Shown in pieces: positions 13,212 to 30,485 of a stretch of 64,000 bases of DNA. The notes below the pieces were generated by a model, which saw only the letters and a list, made by a program, of their open reading frames with translations, did not search any database and was not told the origin of the DNA. The DNA is taken from the NCBI GenBank assembly GCA_018056425.1, contig JAGPFR010000008.1, forward strand, positions 16,538-80,537, read 5' to 3'. How positions within the stretch are numbered: the stretch's first letter is position 1; every line of letters begins with the position of its first letter. Made by a program: the position numbers and the translations under genes. This DNA comes from Lachnospiraceae bacterium. Lineage in GTDB: Bacteria > Bacillota > Clostridia > Lachnospirales > Lachnospiraceae.

Positions 13212-13253
13212 ATTCTTATATATATCAAAAAAATAATTTTTTACATGTTAAAA

Positions 13254-13337
13254 TGCGGGTAGCCGGACTCGAACCGGCACGGAGTCGCCCCCGAGGGATT
13301 TTAAGTCCCTTGCGTCTACCTATTTCGCCATACCCGC
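13254..13337 (-). tRNA. tRNA-Leu (UAA)
   Basis: The acceptor stem GCGGGTA/TACCCGC is perfect, the T arm contains GGTTCGAGTCC, and the anticodon loop CTTAAAA within stem AGGGA/TCCCT gives anticodon TAA. The extended variable arm fits a class II leucine tRNA. The discriminator is A at 13254 and CCA is not encoded, in keeping with the CCA-adding enzyme at 21950. Confidence 0.97.
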
Positions 13338-13364
13338 ATGCTCAATCTGCAAGTGAGAATTATA

Positions 13365-24981: not shown

Positions 24982-25797
24982 TTAGAGCTTTTGGGAAGAT
25001 TTTTCACAAATATGACACATATACATATCGGCTATGTCAAGGTCGGTCAAACTGTAGAGCATCCTTGCACCGGCCGCATCTTCGACCTCATTTACAACCC
25101 ACTTTCCGTGATCTTTGATAACATCAACCCCGATGTAATCAGCCAGCAGGTAATCCGAGAGCTTAAGAGCCATGTCGGCAACCTCGGCCGGCGGCTCAGC
25201 TAGGGCAGCTTCTCCGCCCAGACTGAAATTACTCCTGAAATCTTTTTGGGAAGTACGGAGAACCGAAGCAACTATTTTCCCGCCGAGTATGTACAGGCGC
25301 ATATCCTGACCCGGGGTATCACACATCTTTTGGATTATCCACTCCGAAGGATTCAGCCCCCTGATGATCTCGCGAACTTCCTCATATTTACGGGCCATAA
25401 ATACCCTGTTTCCGCCATGACCCCTTCTGTGCTTTACAATATAAGGAGCCTTGAACGGGATCTCGTCTTCGGGAGTATCCCCGGGAACAGTCTCCATTAC
25501 AGGCATGCCCAATTCGCGGAAAAGATCGTACTCTTCCAGTTTGTCATTTCCTATTCGAACCGTTTCCGAATTATTAAAGCTCTTGATACCCAGGCCTTCA
25601 AAATATCTTGATACCTCTTCGTCCCTGGATCTGTTAATTACAAAAACCGCTTCGGTTTCCTCAAAAGCCTGCCAGGGGGTTACCAGATCGAGCCTGATAC
25701 CTTTTTCGGCTGCTTTTTCGGTTAACCGGTCTATAAACCATCTGTTTTTTTCTGCATCCGCTTCGAAATATACAAGAAGCGCTCTTTTATCTTTCAT
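24982..25797 (-). CDS. ATP-grasp protein, RimK-like (second of a pair)
   Basis: 271 residues. The ATP-grasp fold is shown by APYIVKHRRGHGGNRVFMA (phosphate-binding loop), the EWIIQKM hinge and the metal-binding end VVNEVEDAAGARML. RimK-type enzymes join an amino acid to a carboxylate through an acyl phosphate. Here the common metal-site pattern Glu-x-Asn is replaced by Asn-Glu-Val-Glu-Asp. The start lies 11 bp inside the end of the other ATP-grasp gene, so the two products are probably made together. The substrate is unknown. Confidence 0.75.
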   Translation of the reverse strand: MKDKRALLVYFEADAEKNRWFIDRLTEKAAEKGIRLDLVTPWQAFEETEAVFVINRSRDEEVSRYFEGLGIKSFNNSETVRIGNDKLEEYDLFRELGMPVMETVPGDTPEDEIPFKAPYIVKHRRGHGGNRVFMARKYEEVREIIRGLNPSEWIIQKMCDTPGQDMRLYILGGKIVASVLRTSQKDFRSNFSLGGEAALAEPPAEVADMALKLSDYLLADYIGVDVIKDHGKWVVNEVEDAAGARMLYSLTDLDIADMYMCHICEKSSQKL

Positions 25798-26659
25798 CTA
25801 CGTGCTCTTTTATATAACTGATTATGTGTTCGGCCATATTTATGCCGGTGCATTCAAGGGTAGTTTTAAAATGCGGATTTGAGTTGACCTCGCATATGAT
25901 CGGTCCCTCTTTTCCAAACAAAACGTCCACTCCGGCAAAATCCAGGCCAAGTGCTTTACATGCGGCAATTGCCAGCTCTTCCTGTTCTTTGGTCGCATCA
26001 AATCTTTTCATGCTTCCGCCGTTTGTGATATTCGAACGGAAATCATTGTCATTATATCTGTACATCGAGGCCACAACCCGGTCACCGACAACATTTATCC
26101 TGACGTCCCTTCCGGCGGACTCTTCTATGTATTCCTGCATTATAAAGGGATGTTCCTTAAAAGATGCTATCAGGACTTCGGCTTCATATGAATTCTTGAC
26201 CAGATGTACCTGCTGCCCGAAAGATCCCCTGTTTTCTTTGATGATCATCGGGTATCCGATTTCTTCCTCGGCTTTCCTTAAGAAAGACATATCGGTACAG
26301 CCAAAAGTCGGATATGCCTTGGGGGATAGAAATGTTTTGGGCGTTCTTATACCTTCTTCAACAAGCGCAATGGCTGTCTGGCCTTTATCATCGCAGACCT
26401 CAATACTCTGAGACGAGTTAAAAAGTCTGAGTCCGCGCTTTTCAAGGCGTGATGCAAGGAGAATATCCTTGTCCCAGAAGATTCCGAAATCGGGAAGTTC
26501 ATAATCCTCAAATCTGCTCTGAACACTGCAATTAATATCGGATGAGGTCTTCATCTCCAGCTCGACTCCGACCTTCTTTCCGGCTTCGAGAAGCAGATTA
26601 TATATCTCACTGAACTTATCCCACTTAACAAATGAATTTACGATTAGCCAACCCTTCAA
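25787..26659 (-). CDS. ATP-grasp protein, RimK family (first of a pair)
   Basis: 290 residues. The ATP-grasp core is well kept: GYPMIIKENRGSFGQQVHLV, PFIMQEYIEESAGRDVRINVVGDRVVASMYR and the metal-binding CEVNSNPHF. These match RimK/LysX-type amino-acid ligases. It overlaps the next ATP-grasp gene by 11 bp. No dedicated peptide-carrier gene (such as lysW) is seen near it, so the acceptor remains unknown. Confidence 0.82.
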   Translation of the reverse strand: MKGWLIVNSFVKWDKFSEIYNLLLEAGKKVGVELEMKTSSDINCSVQSRFEDYELPDFGIFWDKDILLASRLEKRGLRLFNSSQSIEVCDDKGQTAIALVEEGIRTPKTFLSPKAYPTFGCTDMSFLRKAEEEIGYPMIIKENRGSFGQQVHLVKNSYEAEVLIASFKEHPFIMQEYIEESAGRDVRINVVGDRVVASMYRYNDNDFRSNITNGGSMKRFDATKEQEELAIAACKALGLDFAGVDVLFGKEGPIICEVNSNPHFKTTLECTGINMAEHIISYIKEHVDER

Positions 26660-26732: not shown

Positions 26733-26939
26733 TCAGCGAATGATCTCATCCACGGTGAAAACCTCTTCTATAGGGACGTCAAAGACCTTGGCCACCTTCC
26801 ATGCCAGTACCAGACTGGGATTGTAGCGTCCGTTTTCGAGATTTCCGATGGTTTCACGGCGTACTCCTACCTTAAATGCCAGCTCTTCCTGGTTAATTCC
26901 GAGCTTGGCACGGAATTCTTTGATCCTGTTTTTGATCAT
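26733..26939 (-). CDS. Small XRE-family transcriptional regulator
   Basis: 68 residues from ATG 26939, which follows AAAGGAG directly (AAAGGAGTCACG). The chain is almost only a Cro/CI helix-turn-helix (IKEFRAKLGINQEELAFKVGVRRETIGNLENGRYNPSLVLAWKVAKVF), like the YozG-type one-domain repressors. The gene lies 73 bp upstream of the ATP-grasp pair. A 10-bp inverted repeat flanks its promoter region and may be its own operator. Confidence 0.88.
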   Translation of the reverse strand: MIKNRIKEFRAKLGINQEELAFKVGVRRETIGNLENGRYNPSLVLAWKVAKVFDVPIEEVFTVDEIIR

Positions 26940-26958
26940 CGTGACTCCTTTCCGGTTC

Positions 26959-27066
26959 AAAAGAGGTAAATGGATAACATTTTGTGATATATTTGGTGCA
27001 TTTTGTTTCATTTAACGCTTATATCGTTATATTATCTGCACTTATTGTTATAAATATACCTCTTTT
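26959..27066. repeat. Widely spaced inverted repeat upstream of the XRE gene
   Basis: AAAAGAGGTA (26959-26968) recurs as its exact complement TACCTCTTTT at 27057-27066, 88 bp apart. The AT-rich interval must hold the XRE promoter. Two sites could be bridged by the encoded repressor. Confidence 0.35.
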
Positions 27067-27124: not shown

Positions 27125-27158
27125 AAAAAACAGCTCCCGAACCCTTGGATCCGGGAGC
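27125..27158 (-). terminator. Intrinsic terminator after leuA
   Basis: GCTCCCG (27133-27139) pairs with CGGGAGC (27152-27158). Read on the minus strand, the stem is followed by TGTTTTTTG. It lies shortly beyond the stop of the leuA-AraC gene. Confidence 0.85.
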
Positions 27159-27182
27159 CGCAATATGTGAAAACCCGCTTGT

Positions 27183-29186
27183 TTACTGCTTTCTGTACTG
27201 TACAGGGGTTACTCCGTAAGTCTTCTTGAACATTCTGTTGAAATGCTCGACATTTTCGTATCCGACTTCAAGTGCGATATTTTCGATGGTCTTGGTGGTG
27301 TCCTTGAGAAGAGTTTTTGCCCTCTTGAGCTTCTCTAAACGAAGGACATCCTGGAAAGTCTCACCGGTCTTTTCCTTAATATATTTTGACAGATAAGGTC
27401 TGGAAAGGTGGAATTCCTCAGCCATGGAATCAAGGGAGACATCCTGATAGTTTCTCTGAATATAGGTAAGGATCTCGACAAGTCTCTCCTCACGTGCCCT
27501 GTTGATGTGCTGGTCGGAAGCAACCTTATTTACACAGCTGACGAGTGCAGCATTGGAAGCCTTGATGATATCCTCATCGACTCCGACACCCCAATAGGTC
27601 TTTCCTTCGGATACTACGCTGACATAGGAAGCCGCCTTGGAGGAACTGGTCTTGGAGATCGCATGCTCTTCATATCCGGTCAGTTCATAATCAACTCCCA
27701 GATACAGTTTGATGGCGTTACTTACGGAGTCAAGTCTTCCGTTTCCTACGGTAACGACTTTCTGCTCTCCGCTCTTATCCTTAAAGCTTACGGATGCCTC
27801 GATTCCGCCGTTTCCGAGCTGCTTATAGTGTATCTCGGTCGCATCGAATACGGGTCTCGAGGTTACATATACATCTTCAAAGACTGAAAACATCTCGTCA
27901 GGCTTGAGCTCTTTATGCTTTCTGTCGGATACGCCCTTCATCAGGTAGCCGACTTCTTCCTTCATCGCTGCGGGAAGGCTGAAGCCGAACTGCTGCTTAA
28001 GAACGAATGCGACGCCGCCCTTTCCGGAAGTTGAATTAATACGTATAACATCGGATTCGTACTCTCTTCCGATATCCGAGGGGTCGATGGGAATATAAGG
28101 GATATCCCATCTTACTCCGGTCTTACCTTCGGCGCGGTAATTCATACCCTTGCTGATGGCATCCTGGTGAGATCCCGAGAAAGCGGTAAATACCAGATCG
28201 CCGCCGTAAGGAGTTCTCTCATGGACCTTCATATTGGTAAATCTCTCATAAGCCTCACGGATCTTCATTATGTTGGAGAAGTCAAGTCCGCTGTCGACAC
28301 CGTGGGTGATCATGTTCATGGCTACGGTTACAAGGTCAACATTACCCGTTCTTTCACCGTTTCCGAAAAGAGTACCCTCAACGCGGTCGGCTCCCGCAAG
28401 AACGCCCAGCTCTGCATCGGCTACTCCGGTTCCTCTGTCATTGTGGGGGTGTACGGAAAGTACGACTCCTTCACGATACTTCATATTATCCGACATGTAT
28501 TCGATCTGATCTGCAAAAACATGGGGCATTGCTACCTGTACGGTTGAAGGCAGATTGATTATAGCCTTCTTCTCGGGGGTGGGCTTCCATACATCCAGAA
28601 CCGCATTGCATACTTCAAGAGCAAATTCGGGCTCGGTCTGTGAGAAGCTCTCCGGACTGTACTCAAACATAAAGTTTCCGTCAGTCTCATCAGCAAGCTC
28701 TTTTAACAATTTGGCTCCGTCCACCGCAATCTTCACGATCTCGGGCTTTTCTTTCTTAAATACCTGCTCCCTCTGCTCGACGGAAGTCGAATTATACAGA
28801 TGAACTATTGCCTTGGGGCATCCCTTAACGGCATCGAAGGTCTTGCGGATGATATGCTCTCTTGCCTGGGTAAGAACCTGAATGGTCACATCATCGGGAA
28901 TCATGTTCTTATCTATCAGTGCTCTGATGAATTCAAACTCGGTATCGGATGATGCAGGGAATCCTACTTCGATCTCTTTAAAGCCGACATCAACGAGAAG
29001 CTTGAAAAACTCGAGTTTTACTTCCAGGCTCATCGGATCGATAAGTGCCTGGTTTCCGTCTCTTAAGTCCACGCTGCACCAGATAGGGGGCTTGGTAATC
29101 CTGTCTTTTTTAACCCAATTGTGGTTAAGAACGGGAGGCATATAATATGTAGGCCTGTATTTCTCACTGATGTTGATCTTACTCAT
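27183..29186 (-). CDS. leuA: 2-isopropylmalate synthase fused to an AraC-type DNA-binding domain
   Basis: A single frame of 667 residues. Residues 33-320 are the HMGL-like catalytic barrel: SVDLRDGNQALIDP, SVHPHNDRGTGVADAELG and GTLFGNGERTGNVDLV give the metal ligands and signature of 2-isopropylmalate synthase, which condenses acetyl-CoA with 2-oxoisovalerate in leucine synthesis. About 430-555 is the LeuA regulatory domain, where leucine binds in known enzymes. Residues 566-667 are a complete two-helix-turn-helix AraC domain (YIQRNYQDVSLDSMAEEFHL... IENIALEVGYENVEHFNRMFKKTYGVTPVQYRK). AAGGAG precedes the ATG. Other leu genes are not adjacent. An enzyme that also regulates transcription in response to leucine is inferred. 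Confidence 0.93.
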   Translation of the reverse strand: MSKINISEKYRPTYYMPPVLNHNWVKKDRITKPPIWCSVDLRDGNQALIDPMSLEVKLEFFKLLVDVGFKEIEVGFPASSDTEFEFIRALIDKNMIPDDVTIQVLTQAREHIIRKTFDAVKGCPKAIVHLYNSTSVEQREQVFKKEKPEIVKIAVDGAKLLKELADETDGNFMFEYSPESFSQTEPEFALEVCNAVLDVWKPTPEKKAIINLPSTVQVAMPHVFADQIEYMSDNMKYREGVVLSVHPHNDRGTGVADAELGVLAGADRVEGTLFGNGERTGNVDLVTVAMNMITHGVDSGLDFSNIMKIREAYERFTNMKVHERTPYGGDLVFTAFSGSHQDAISKGMNYRAEGKTGVRWDIPYIPIDPSDIGREYESDVIRINSTSGKGGVAFVLKQQFGFSLPAAMKEEVGYLMKGVSDRKHKELKPDEMFSVFEDVYVTSRPVFDATEIHYKQLGNGGIEASVSFKDKSGEQKVVTVGNGRLDSVSNAIKLYLGVDYELTGYEEHAISKTSSSKAASYVSVVSEGKTYWGVGVDEDIIKASNAALVSCVNKVASDQHINRAREERLVEILTYIQRNYQDVSLDSMAEEFHLSRPYLSKYIKEKTGETFQDVLRLEKLKRAKTLLKDTTKTIENIALEVGYENVEHFNRMFKKTYGVTPVQYRKQ

Positions 29187-29200
29187 ATTTACTCCTTCTG

Positions 29201-29220
29201 CAGATATATTAATATATCTG
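29201..29220. repeat. Perfect 20-bp palindrome in the leuA leader
   Basis: CAGATATATTAATATATCTG is its own reverse complement. It lies 14 bp before the leuA start, between the predicted transcription start and the ribosome binding site, and could be an operator or a leader hairpin. Confidence 0.6.
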
Positions 29221-29238
29221 CCCTGAACAGTTATGAAT

Positions 29239-29305
29239 TTAAAATACTCCTCTAAAATTTAAAAATCAAGAGGTATTTTAATCTAAAGTTCAGATGTATT
29301 TTAAT
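29239..29305 (-). promoter_or_regulatory. leuA promoter with three GTATTTTAA repeats
   Basis: GTATTTTAA occurs at 29296-29304 and 29273-29281 in the same direction, 23 bp apart, and inverted at 29247-29239. On the minus strand, TTGATT (29269-29264) and TATTTT (29246-29241) have a 17-bp spacer. The inverted copy therefore overlaps the -10 and the direct copies flank the -35. The spacing of about two helix turns suits an AraC-type regulator, here possibly the LeuA fusion itself. Confidence 0.45.
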
Positions 29306-29349
29306 GCGTACAACAGGGAAATGCCGTTTTTGCGGGATTTTGGCAAAAT

Positions 29350-29660: not shown

Positions 29661-29849
29661 CCGTACTCCTTTCGATTCGGAAGTGTATTATGACATTGGT
29701 ATTTTAACATACATAAGTTTCTCAGAATAACAAAAAATGCCCATTTTTTATGCAAGAAAACGGTATCGGGTTTCCGGCAAATGATGTATTATATGAAAAG
29801 ACACTGATTTTGGGTGTACGGGGTATTTTATTATATAGGAGGTTTCACT

Positions 29850-30485
29850 ATGCAGTTAATCTCAGTTCACAGCAAAGAATTCGAAAAGTACGGAAAGGTT
29901 TTAACCGGATACGATGTATCTTCATTGCAGGACGCGATGAATAAGATAGATCTTCCCGCAGAGGGAGTTGCTTACGAGCCCGGAATCGATAGCCTTGAAG
30001 CTTGCACCGATCTTTACAAGGATTTCACGGACCGTGCTTACGGCGGAATGCCCATTCAGGTAGGCATGTGCTGGGGAAGAAACACCAAGCTCAACTGTCT
30101 TGAGTATCACAGAGGAAGCGAGCTCAACATCGGAACCACTTCATTCGTTCTTCTCCTTGCCAAGGCAGAGGACATTCACGACGGAAAGCTTGATACCAAG
30201 GATGTTGTAGCATTTAAGGCTGATGCAGGCGATGTTGTTCTCGTGTACGAAGACAGCCTTCACTATGCACCCTGCCAGTGCGACGGAAATGACGGATTCC
30301 GCGTTGCCATTGTTCTTCCCAAGGGAACCAACACCGAAAAGCCCGCTCTTAAAGAAGGAAATGACGAGGATAAACTCCTTTGGGCCCGCAACAAGTGGCT
30401 CATAGCTCATCCCGAGAGCTCTGAGGCTTCTGACGGAGCTTATGTAGGCCTTACCGGCAAGAACATCGATATTGCAGTCGACTGA
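29850..30485 (+). CDS. DUF4867 family protein (cupin-like)
   Basis: 211 residues from ATG 29850, chosen because ATAGGAGG stands directly before it. The sequence (MPIQVGMCWGRNTKLNCLEYHRGSELNIG... DAGDVVLVYEDSLHYAPC) is beta-rich and matches my recollection of DUF4867, a cupin-like family often near sugar-catabolic genes. No enzyme activity is established. It is a single-gene plus-strand unit facing the replication fork, bounded by its own terminator. Confidence 0.8.
   Translation: MQLISVHSKEFEKYGKVLTGYDVSSLQDAMNKIDLPAEGVAYEPGIDSLEACTDLYKDFTDRAYGGMPIQVGMCWGRNTKLNCLEYHRGSELNIGTTSFVLLLAKAEDIHDGKLDTKDVVAFKADAGDVVLVYEDSLHYAPCQCDGNDGFRVAIVLPKGTNTEKPALKEGNDEDKLLWARNKWLIAHPESSEASDGAYVGLTGKNIDIAVD

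Follow-up and report, generated by a model that had tools for sequence, protein, structure and literature searches.

The stretch analysed here, referred to as the window, comprises 64,000 nucleotides of contig JAGPFR010000008.1 from a Lachnospiraceae bacterium. On its minus strand, an open reading frame with an ATG start and without internal stop encodes a 2-isopropylmalate synthase (LeuA) that continues into an AraC-type DNA-binding domain. The original prediction of a complete LeuA and a complete two-HTH AraC domain in a single unbroken frame was borne out by its 667 codons and by Pfam and NCBIfam, which agree on both parts. The gene, its domains and the hairpin behind it are:

27183..29186, minus strand: leuA-araC fused gene, 667 aa (open frame; Pfam/NCBIfam; AlphaFold2; PDB matches)
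28254..29084, minus strand: HMGL-like catalytic domain, residues 35-311 (Pfam PF00682; kept catalytic residues)
27996..28199, minus strand: IPMS_D2 post-catalytic domain, residues 330-397 (Pfam PF22615)
27522..27911, minus strand: LeuA allosteric (leucine-binding) domain, LeuA_dimer, residues 426-555 (Pfam PF08502; kept residues)
27486..27521, minus strand: variable junction, residues 556-567 (conservation per column)
27186..27485, minus strand: AraC-type DNA-binding domain with two HTHs, residues 568-667 (Pfam HTH_18 and HTH_AraC; model; Foldseek)
27130..27161, minus strand: terminator hairpin directly 3' of the gene (14-pair stem, T tail)

The best NCBIfam model was PRK03739, which covered residues 8-554 with 787.7 bits against a cut-off of 455, a full-length match that assigns the LeuA part to the LeuA2-type 2-isopropylmalate synthases; the equivalog cut-off of the narrower model TIGR00970 (leuA_yeast) was narrowly missed (683.8 vs. 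697.4 bits). The tail matched HTH_18 (PF12833) at residues 588-667 (E 6.1e-23) as well as HTH_AraC, and Pfam, the structure model and PDB matches concur on two HTHs in a seven-helix domain of the AraC/XylS type. Structure prediction, which had been proposed as a check of the fusion, returned a LeuA fold with an AraC-like tail. The AlphaFold2 model of the whole chain had a mean pLDDT of 78.4 and a pTM of 0.57, and its domain arrangement was left unused because pLDDT was below 50 in several stretches (residues 1-11, 44-49, 216-218, 277-280, 325-348 and 358-390). A model of residues 426-667, comprising the leucine domain and the tail, reached a pLDDT of 87.2 and a pTM of 0.78, with seven helices in the tail. 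The closest PDB match of the fused protein was LeuA of Mycobacterium tuberculosis, and Foldseek matched the tail to the DNA-binding domains of YesN, MarA, SoxS and AraC.

Counterparts of M. tuberculosis residues were placed by sequence alignment. R42, D43, E179, H246, H248 and H340, presumably equivalent to the metal-binding and catalytic residues R80, D81, E218, H285, H287 and H379 of the M. tuberculosis enzyme, were identical in 113/113 rows, and N282 and Y364 were kept in 42/42 rows, tail-less LeuA among them. In the leucine domain, G481, G483, Y505 and A518 were identical in all 113 rows, while A509 was found in 67 rows with serine in 43; E175 varied too (Q in 27). We take G481, G483, Y505 and A509 to be regulatory-site residues, based on work on the M. 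tuberculosis enzyme. As judged from the alignment, the LeuA part retains intact catalytic and leucine-binding residues, and both synthase activity and inhibition by leucine are predicted. In the tail, S600, G642, Y643, F649 and F653 had a frequency of 1.0, and average conservation was 3.08 bits per column compared to 3.04 in the leucine domain. The junction was the least conserved of the compared stretches (1.56 bits per column).

The terminator-like hairpin suggests that leuA-araC is transcribed alone as a monocistronic unit, with the reservation that terminator-type matches were no rarer in shuffled sequence (shuffle mean 2.4). Directly after leuA lies a small gene for an HTH_3 (XRE-type) protein (26733-27011, minus strand), and two overlapping RimK-like ATP-grasp genes stand in tandem at 24982-26659 (minus strand). 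A gene for a DUF4867 protein is located at 29814-30485 (plus strand), and the presence of a tRNA-Leu (taa) gene about 14 kb from leuA (13253-13338, minus strand) is probably due to chance.

Distribution of the fusion and selection on its tail

Within the genus, the fusion was found at full length in 27 of 31 genomes. In the others, the gene began at a contig edge with the tail present (G017), the tail was present in a shifted frame (G009), the match covered residues 1-370 only (G002), or no LeuA match was obtained (G019). At the family level, a LeuA match at 1e-100 was obtained in 362 of 397 genomes, and the intact fusion was present in at least 89, with matches reaching residue 665-667 without a stop. 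Among 392 genomes of the order, at least 50 matches reached the end and, among the matches listed, all of these belonged to Lachnospiraceae, while the LeuA matches listed for other families ended by residue 585. Carriers among GTDB species genomes include Faecalicatena contorta ET55, Dorea sp. 5-2, Sporofaciens musculi and Lachnospiraceae AC2028 and P6A3. A frameshift or assembly error was rejected as the source of the tail, since independent assemblies, for example the nine-contig G011 and the single-contig G285, carry the same open frame. An artefactual tail, which had been named as fatal to the original prediction, is thereby contradicted, and the proposed tabulation instead revealed a tail that is widely kept.

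For the comparisons below, 85 of the 87 fusions listed for other genera of the family were fetched (G406 and G267 were left out), together with 35 loci taken as tail-less, which were high-scoring matches and not a random draw; "tail-less" denotes the lack of a tail within the fetched flank. Two loci of one genome, L030 and L113 of G031, are both included in the 113 rows and counted once in the 145-row tally below, which omits L020 and L067 because of their short upstream regions. In two loci initially counted as tail-less, L143 (genome G115) and L150 (G132), the AraC tail is encoded just downstream of leuA in another frame, and the operator described below is kept.

The split or shifted tails of G115, G132 and G009, which may be real splits or sequencing slips, would fit a tail left over from a chance fusion and now neutral or decaying. 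Retention of the tail in so many family genomes and its substitution pattern make such a relic extremely improbable. The tail had a median dN/dS of 0.016 (14 usable pairs), compared with 0.014 in the catalytic domain (14 pairs), 0.015 in D2 (18 pairs) and 0.019 in the leucine domain (15 pairs), as estimated from 20 close pairs, some of which share a sequence and many of which have dS values near saturation. In some more distant pairs, the tail evolved faster than the enzyme (L001/L009, 0.071 vs. 0.020; L001/L005, 0.063 vs. 0.013). According to these estimates, purifying selection on the tail is about as strong as on the enzyme.

Candidate operator and promoter geometry

The upstream regions of leuA in the genus contain a direct repeat, TTAAAAT..., with a distance of 22-23 bp between the copies, which adjoins the -35 element. 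The corresponding features of the window are:

29265..29306, minus strand: tandem operator with two direct half-sites (highest-scoring position in the window with either PWM)
29293..29304, minus strand: operator half-site 1, TTAAAATACATC (sequence)
29270..29281, minus strand: operator half-site 2, TTAAAATACCTC, abutting the -35 element (sequence)
29264..29269, minus strand: putative -35 element TTGATT, with a 17-nucleotide spacer to the -10 element (sequence)
29241..29246, minus strand: putative -10 element TATTTT (sequence; its offset from the half-site 2 block, 38, is among the two usual values)
29192..29197, minus strand: ribosome-binding site AAGGAG (sequence)

The operator scored 25.3 with the family PWM and 43.0 with the genus PWM, both of which had the window promoter in their training sets. 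The TTGATT/TATTTT pair was absent from the promoter-scan listing of the window. An inverted half-site at 29239-29250 was rejected; it overlaps the -10 element and, by eye, seemed not to be kept in relatives. The region 29187-29340 had been named as a candidate binding target of the protein, and it indeed holds the tandem operator, which appears to track the tail across the family.

Tail-bearing leuA promoters share a tandem operator of the form TTAAAAnnnATCAA–TGATTAAAnnnnnCAC with a period of mostly 23 bp. A strict regular expression matched it in only 41 of 113 rows, and a PWM was used instead, trained on 53 thinned tail-bearing promoters with a cut at 99% of shuffles. This PWM found the operator in 44/53 training promoters, in 41/53 held-out tail-bearing promoters, with relatives present in both sets after thinning by shared 12-mers only, and in 2/34 promoters counted as tail-less. 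The latter two belong to L143 and L150 and are better described as split than as tail-less because of the tail encoded downstream in another frame. Tallied over 145 rows at a cut of 11.6, tail and operator occurred together in 103 cases, the tail only in 9, the operator only in 1 and neither in 32, corresponding to an operator in 103/112 tail-bearing and 1/33 tail-less genes with the half-trained PWM and with training rows and the two split genes included. The single tail-less gene with an operator, L174, had a marginal score of 12.1; it was counted only in this tally because gaps of 3-8 were allowed there and gaps of 3-5 in the following search. When about 1.1 kb upstream were searched on both strands, none of the 33 tail-less genes scored above 14, and a coding-sequence control gave 2 matches above 14 in 571,146 bases. 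For most tail-bearing promoters the search covered 400 bp, so that the different spans favoured finding sites in tail-less genes. In 13 tail-bearing loci with a T-box motif that were followed over about 1.1 kb, the operator was located farther upstream, with scores of at least 33 in 10 loci, 14-17 in two and 5.5 in one. The tail-bearing L005, which fell below the family cut, scored 36.2 with the genus PWM, of whose training set it is a member. The nine tail-bearing genes without an operator above the cut count against control of leuA by its own product.

On a FastTree phylogeny of the LeuA part, from which L015 (no usable start), L014 (shifted frame) and L030 were omitted, the tail changed at least 8 times. 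In five independent pairs that differ in the tail across well-supported branches, the operator changed with the tail in 4.9 pairs and against it in 0.0 pairs on average (200 pairings; median p of the five-pair sign test 0.0625).

The geometry was analysed in 77 promoters with clear sites, where the repeat period was 23 bp in 64, 22 bp in 11 and 24 bp in 2 cases. The -10 element was placed at two adjacent offsets from half-site 2 in 69/77 promoters (shuffles: mean 14.9, maximum 22) and was preceded by TGn in 71/77 (shuffles: mean 14.4, maximum 26), with TG entering the -10 score of real promoters and shuffles alike. The -35 elements were weak, with 3.2 of 6 matches compared to 2.6 in shuffles. 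Sites of class II AraC-type activators such as AraC, MarA and SoxS have this register and a poor -35 element, and by analogy the leuA operator looks like a class II activator site. A further half-site past the -10 element exceeded the shuffle cut in 9/77 promoters, with a weaker element of this kind in about 20 more, and could serve repression. In L073, L079, L097 and others, a half-site-like element, TTAAAAnAnnACAA...TTGAT, lies about 34 bp past the operator and likewise past the -10 element.

These additional half-sites, together with end-product repression being the usual logic for a biosynthetic gene, would suit an autorepressor in which the leucine-bound LeuA dimer covers the -35 element and blocks RNA polymerase without any activation. 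A repressor does not need a fixed register, however, and the near-fixed position of the -10 element, its extended form and the poor -35 element point to an activator-dependent promoter, so that we regard pure autorepression as a serious but unlikely alternative.

Other candidate targets and T-box control

The patterns for genome-wide searches were derived from leuA promoters, and the counts therefore measure the rarity of sites elsewhere and nothing further. Within the genus, 13 of 31 genomes contributed a total of 13 sites, every one at leuA. In one scan of the family, 15 of 55 genomes contained a total of 16 places; 15 of these were at leuA, including two that represent a single site read on both strands. 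A second scan yielded 34 places in 33 of 50 genomes, 32 of them at leuA, with 1 match for the reversed control pattern. In 34 genomes with a tail-less or split gene, 6 places were obtained, of which 3 belong to leuA in the two split genomes and the other 3 lie at different loci.

Such near-confinement to leuA, and the way in which the site follows the tail over the tree and is missing above a score of 14 from tail-less leuA of the family, argue against an operator that serves another, free-standing AraC regulator while the LeuA tail has a different task, for example scaffolding. Other AraC-domain proteins are encoded in these genomes, and one of them might take this role, but we consider this very unlikely.

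One of the two places away from leuA in the second family scan belongs to G394, where an operator with a score of 28.8 lies about 150 bp before leuB (L248:1179-1220), which is followed by ilvD, and its genus mate G071 (genus g42) has a weaker site of 16.9 before leuB (L352, from 1292). These were the only 2 of 30 genomes with an upstream same-strand site at leuB; in G314, a weak match (12.2) on the opposite strand fell at the start of leuB, and none of the remaining 27 leuB loci exceeded 12. No site over 12 was found at leuC in any of the 30 genomes. Within the genus of the window, the best place at 30 leuB loci scored 15.5 and lay about 140 bp before leuB of G021; it was not counted, as searching this amount of sequence should produce roughly one score of that size by chance. 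At 13 leuC loci from 12 genomes of the genus, the top score was 2.1 with the genus PWM and none exceeded 10 with the family PWM; one of these loci, L055, is a 776-aa aconitase-like frame and not leuC. A regulon covering the whole leucine pathway was rejected in view of these counts (leuC 0/30, leuB 2/30), and the predominance of sites at leuA suggests that control is largely confined to this gene.

Rfam (RF00230) detected a T-box upstream of leuA in 28 of the 33 tail-less cases. Among 20 tail-bearing genes chosen for a T-box motif or for lacking an operator in 400 bp, 13 were preceded by one. The other tail-bearing genes outside the window were checked only for GGTACCGC, which we take to be the T-box motif and which occurred within 400 bp in 14/113 rows. 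In the window, only two tRNAs reached the Rfam gathering score, with no T-box or other RNA at leuA. Judging by this distribution of T-boxes, the tail replaces, or adds to, tRNA-based control. In L230-L236, L240 and L241, operator, promoter and T-box leader are stacked before leuA as two control layers. In two tail-less genomes, a Clostridiales-1 RNA (RF01699) is located between the T-box and leuA (L420:259-417, L434:162-325).

Proposed self-control by a biosynthetic enzyme and its known relatives

Taken together, we put the probability that the AraC tail of LeuA controls the promoter of its own gene at roughly three in four. The fusion, the selection on the tail, the operator and its link to the tail, the promoter register and the scarcity of other sites are, at the level of sequence comparison, established. 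From these we infer DNA binding by the tail, activation over repression, and leucine as the effector. Of the original prediction, which had united catalysis, metabolite sensing and DNA binding in one chain, the presence and conservation of the respective parts stand, while binding and leucine control stay on the inferred side.

A working 2-isopropylmalate synthase would thus be the transcription factor for its own gene. LeuA is a dimer, which would provide the pairing of AraC tails that two half-sites call for. The two tails would occupy the direct half-sites just upstream of the -10 element of leuA and replace a good -35 contact, most likely by class II AraC-type activation. Leucine bound to the regulatory domain, whose end lies immediately ahead of the tail, would inhibit the enzyme and at the same time weaken activation or turn it to repression, such that one binding event lowers both activity and synthesis. 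We consider the chances evenly balanced for the full proposal, in which the feedback site of an active LeuA doubles as effector site of the attached AraC activator, leucine both inhibits the enzyme and shuts the gene, and Lachnospiraceae from dozens of genera use this control alongside the leuA T-box or instead of it, with the leuB-ilvD operon drawn in in one genus. Where a T-box is present, it already senses leucine shortage via tRNA, and a tail that also responds to leucine may be superfluous.

Alternatively, the tail could bind the operator and set leuA expression in response to enzyme abundance, a substrate or the oligomeric state instead of leucine. The active site and the regulatory domain are both possible sensors, and with so variable a junction tight allosteric coupling is not evident from the sequence. 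The position of the leucine domain directly before the tail, its invariant G481, G483 and Y505 and the pTM of the two-domain model speak for leucine, and we think a different signal possible but unlikely.

If self-control by leucine is true, allosteric and transcriptional feedback on the committed step would be united in one protein with one ligand site. Lachnospiraceae are gut and rumen bacteria, and LeuA is the first enzyme in leucine synthesis. Since the architecture is common in this family, leucine synthesis there would have an extra layer of control, hidden in family models that call the protein a plain 2-isopropylmalate synthase. The idea can be tested directly on the predicted operator, from which a leucine-responsive promoter part might also be derived.

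The LeuA of M. tuberculosis (PDB 1sr9 and 3fig; LeuA2/PRK03739 type), with 45-47% identity in Foldseek alignments, shares the catalytic, D2 and leucine-binding domains and the active-site residues with LeuA-AraC but is without a DNA-binding domain. AraC/XylS activators (AraC, MarA, SoxS and the C-terminal domain of YesN) have the two-HTH domain and direct half-sites beside the -35 element in common with it, the latter at leuA being sites predicted by comparison, whereas the partner domain in LeuA-AraC is a whole enzyme. The half-site period of AraC is 21 bp, compared to mostly 23 bp in the leuA operator. The T-box leaders of leuA (RF00230) occur in the same family and also before leuA, in some genomes downstream of the operator, but they are RNA-based and sense tRNA. 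Ada of Escherichia coli combines an AraC-type domain with catalytic parts and activates its own promoter. It is a suicidal DNA repair enzyme that senses DNA damage, unlike LeuA-AraC, which is a biosynthetic enzyme with an end-product site. In the trigger enzymes PutA, BirA and NadR, one chain of a different fold combines enzyme activity with transcriptional control of its own pathway; to our knowledge, none of these is an isopropylmalate synthase or bears an AraC domain. The sequence supports counting LeuA-AraC among the trigger enzymes, with catalysis and gene control both predicted.

In BzdR, an enzyme fold is fused to an HTH domain, and the authors of the work on this regulator propose that catalysis was lost en route (PMC3602430). 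They describe the chimera Q1 as a built version of the proposed ancestral bifunctional stage; in contrast to the catalytically dead Q2, Q1 showed no response to inducers in vivo (PMC3602430). LeuA-AraC resembles the Q1 stage and differs from BzdR in its kept catalytic residues; if the proposed self-control is true, it would be a natural counterpart of the still-bifunctional intermediate built by these workers (PMC3602430). In agreement with the earlier statement that no characterised enzyme of this kind was known, our search of openly licensed papers returned no description of a LeuA-AraC protein. Enzymes that double as transcription factors are known; the pairing of LeuA with an AraC domain and a family-wide operator at its own promoter is new.
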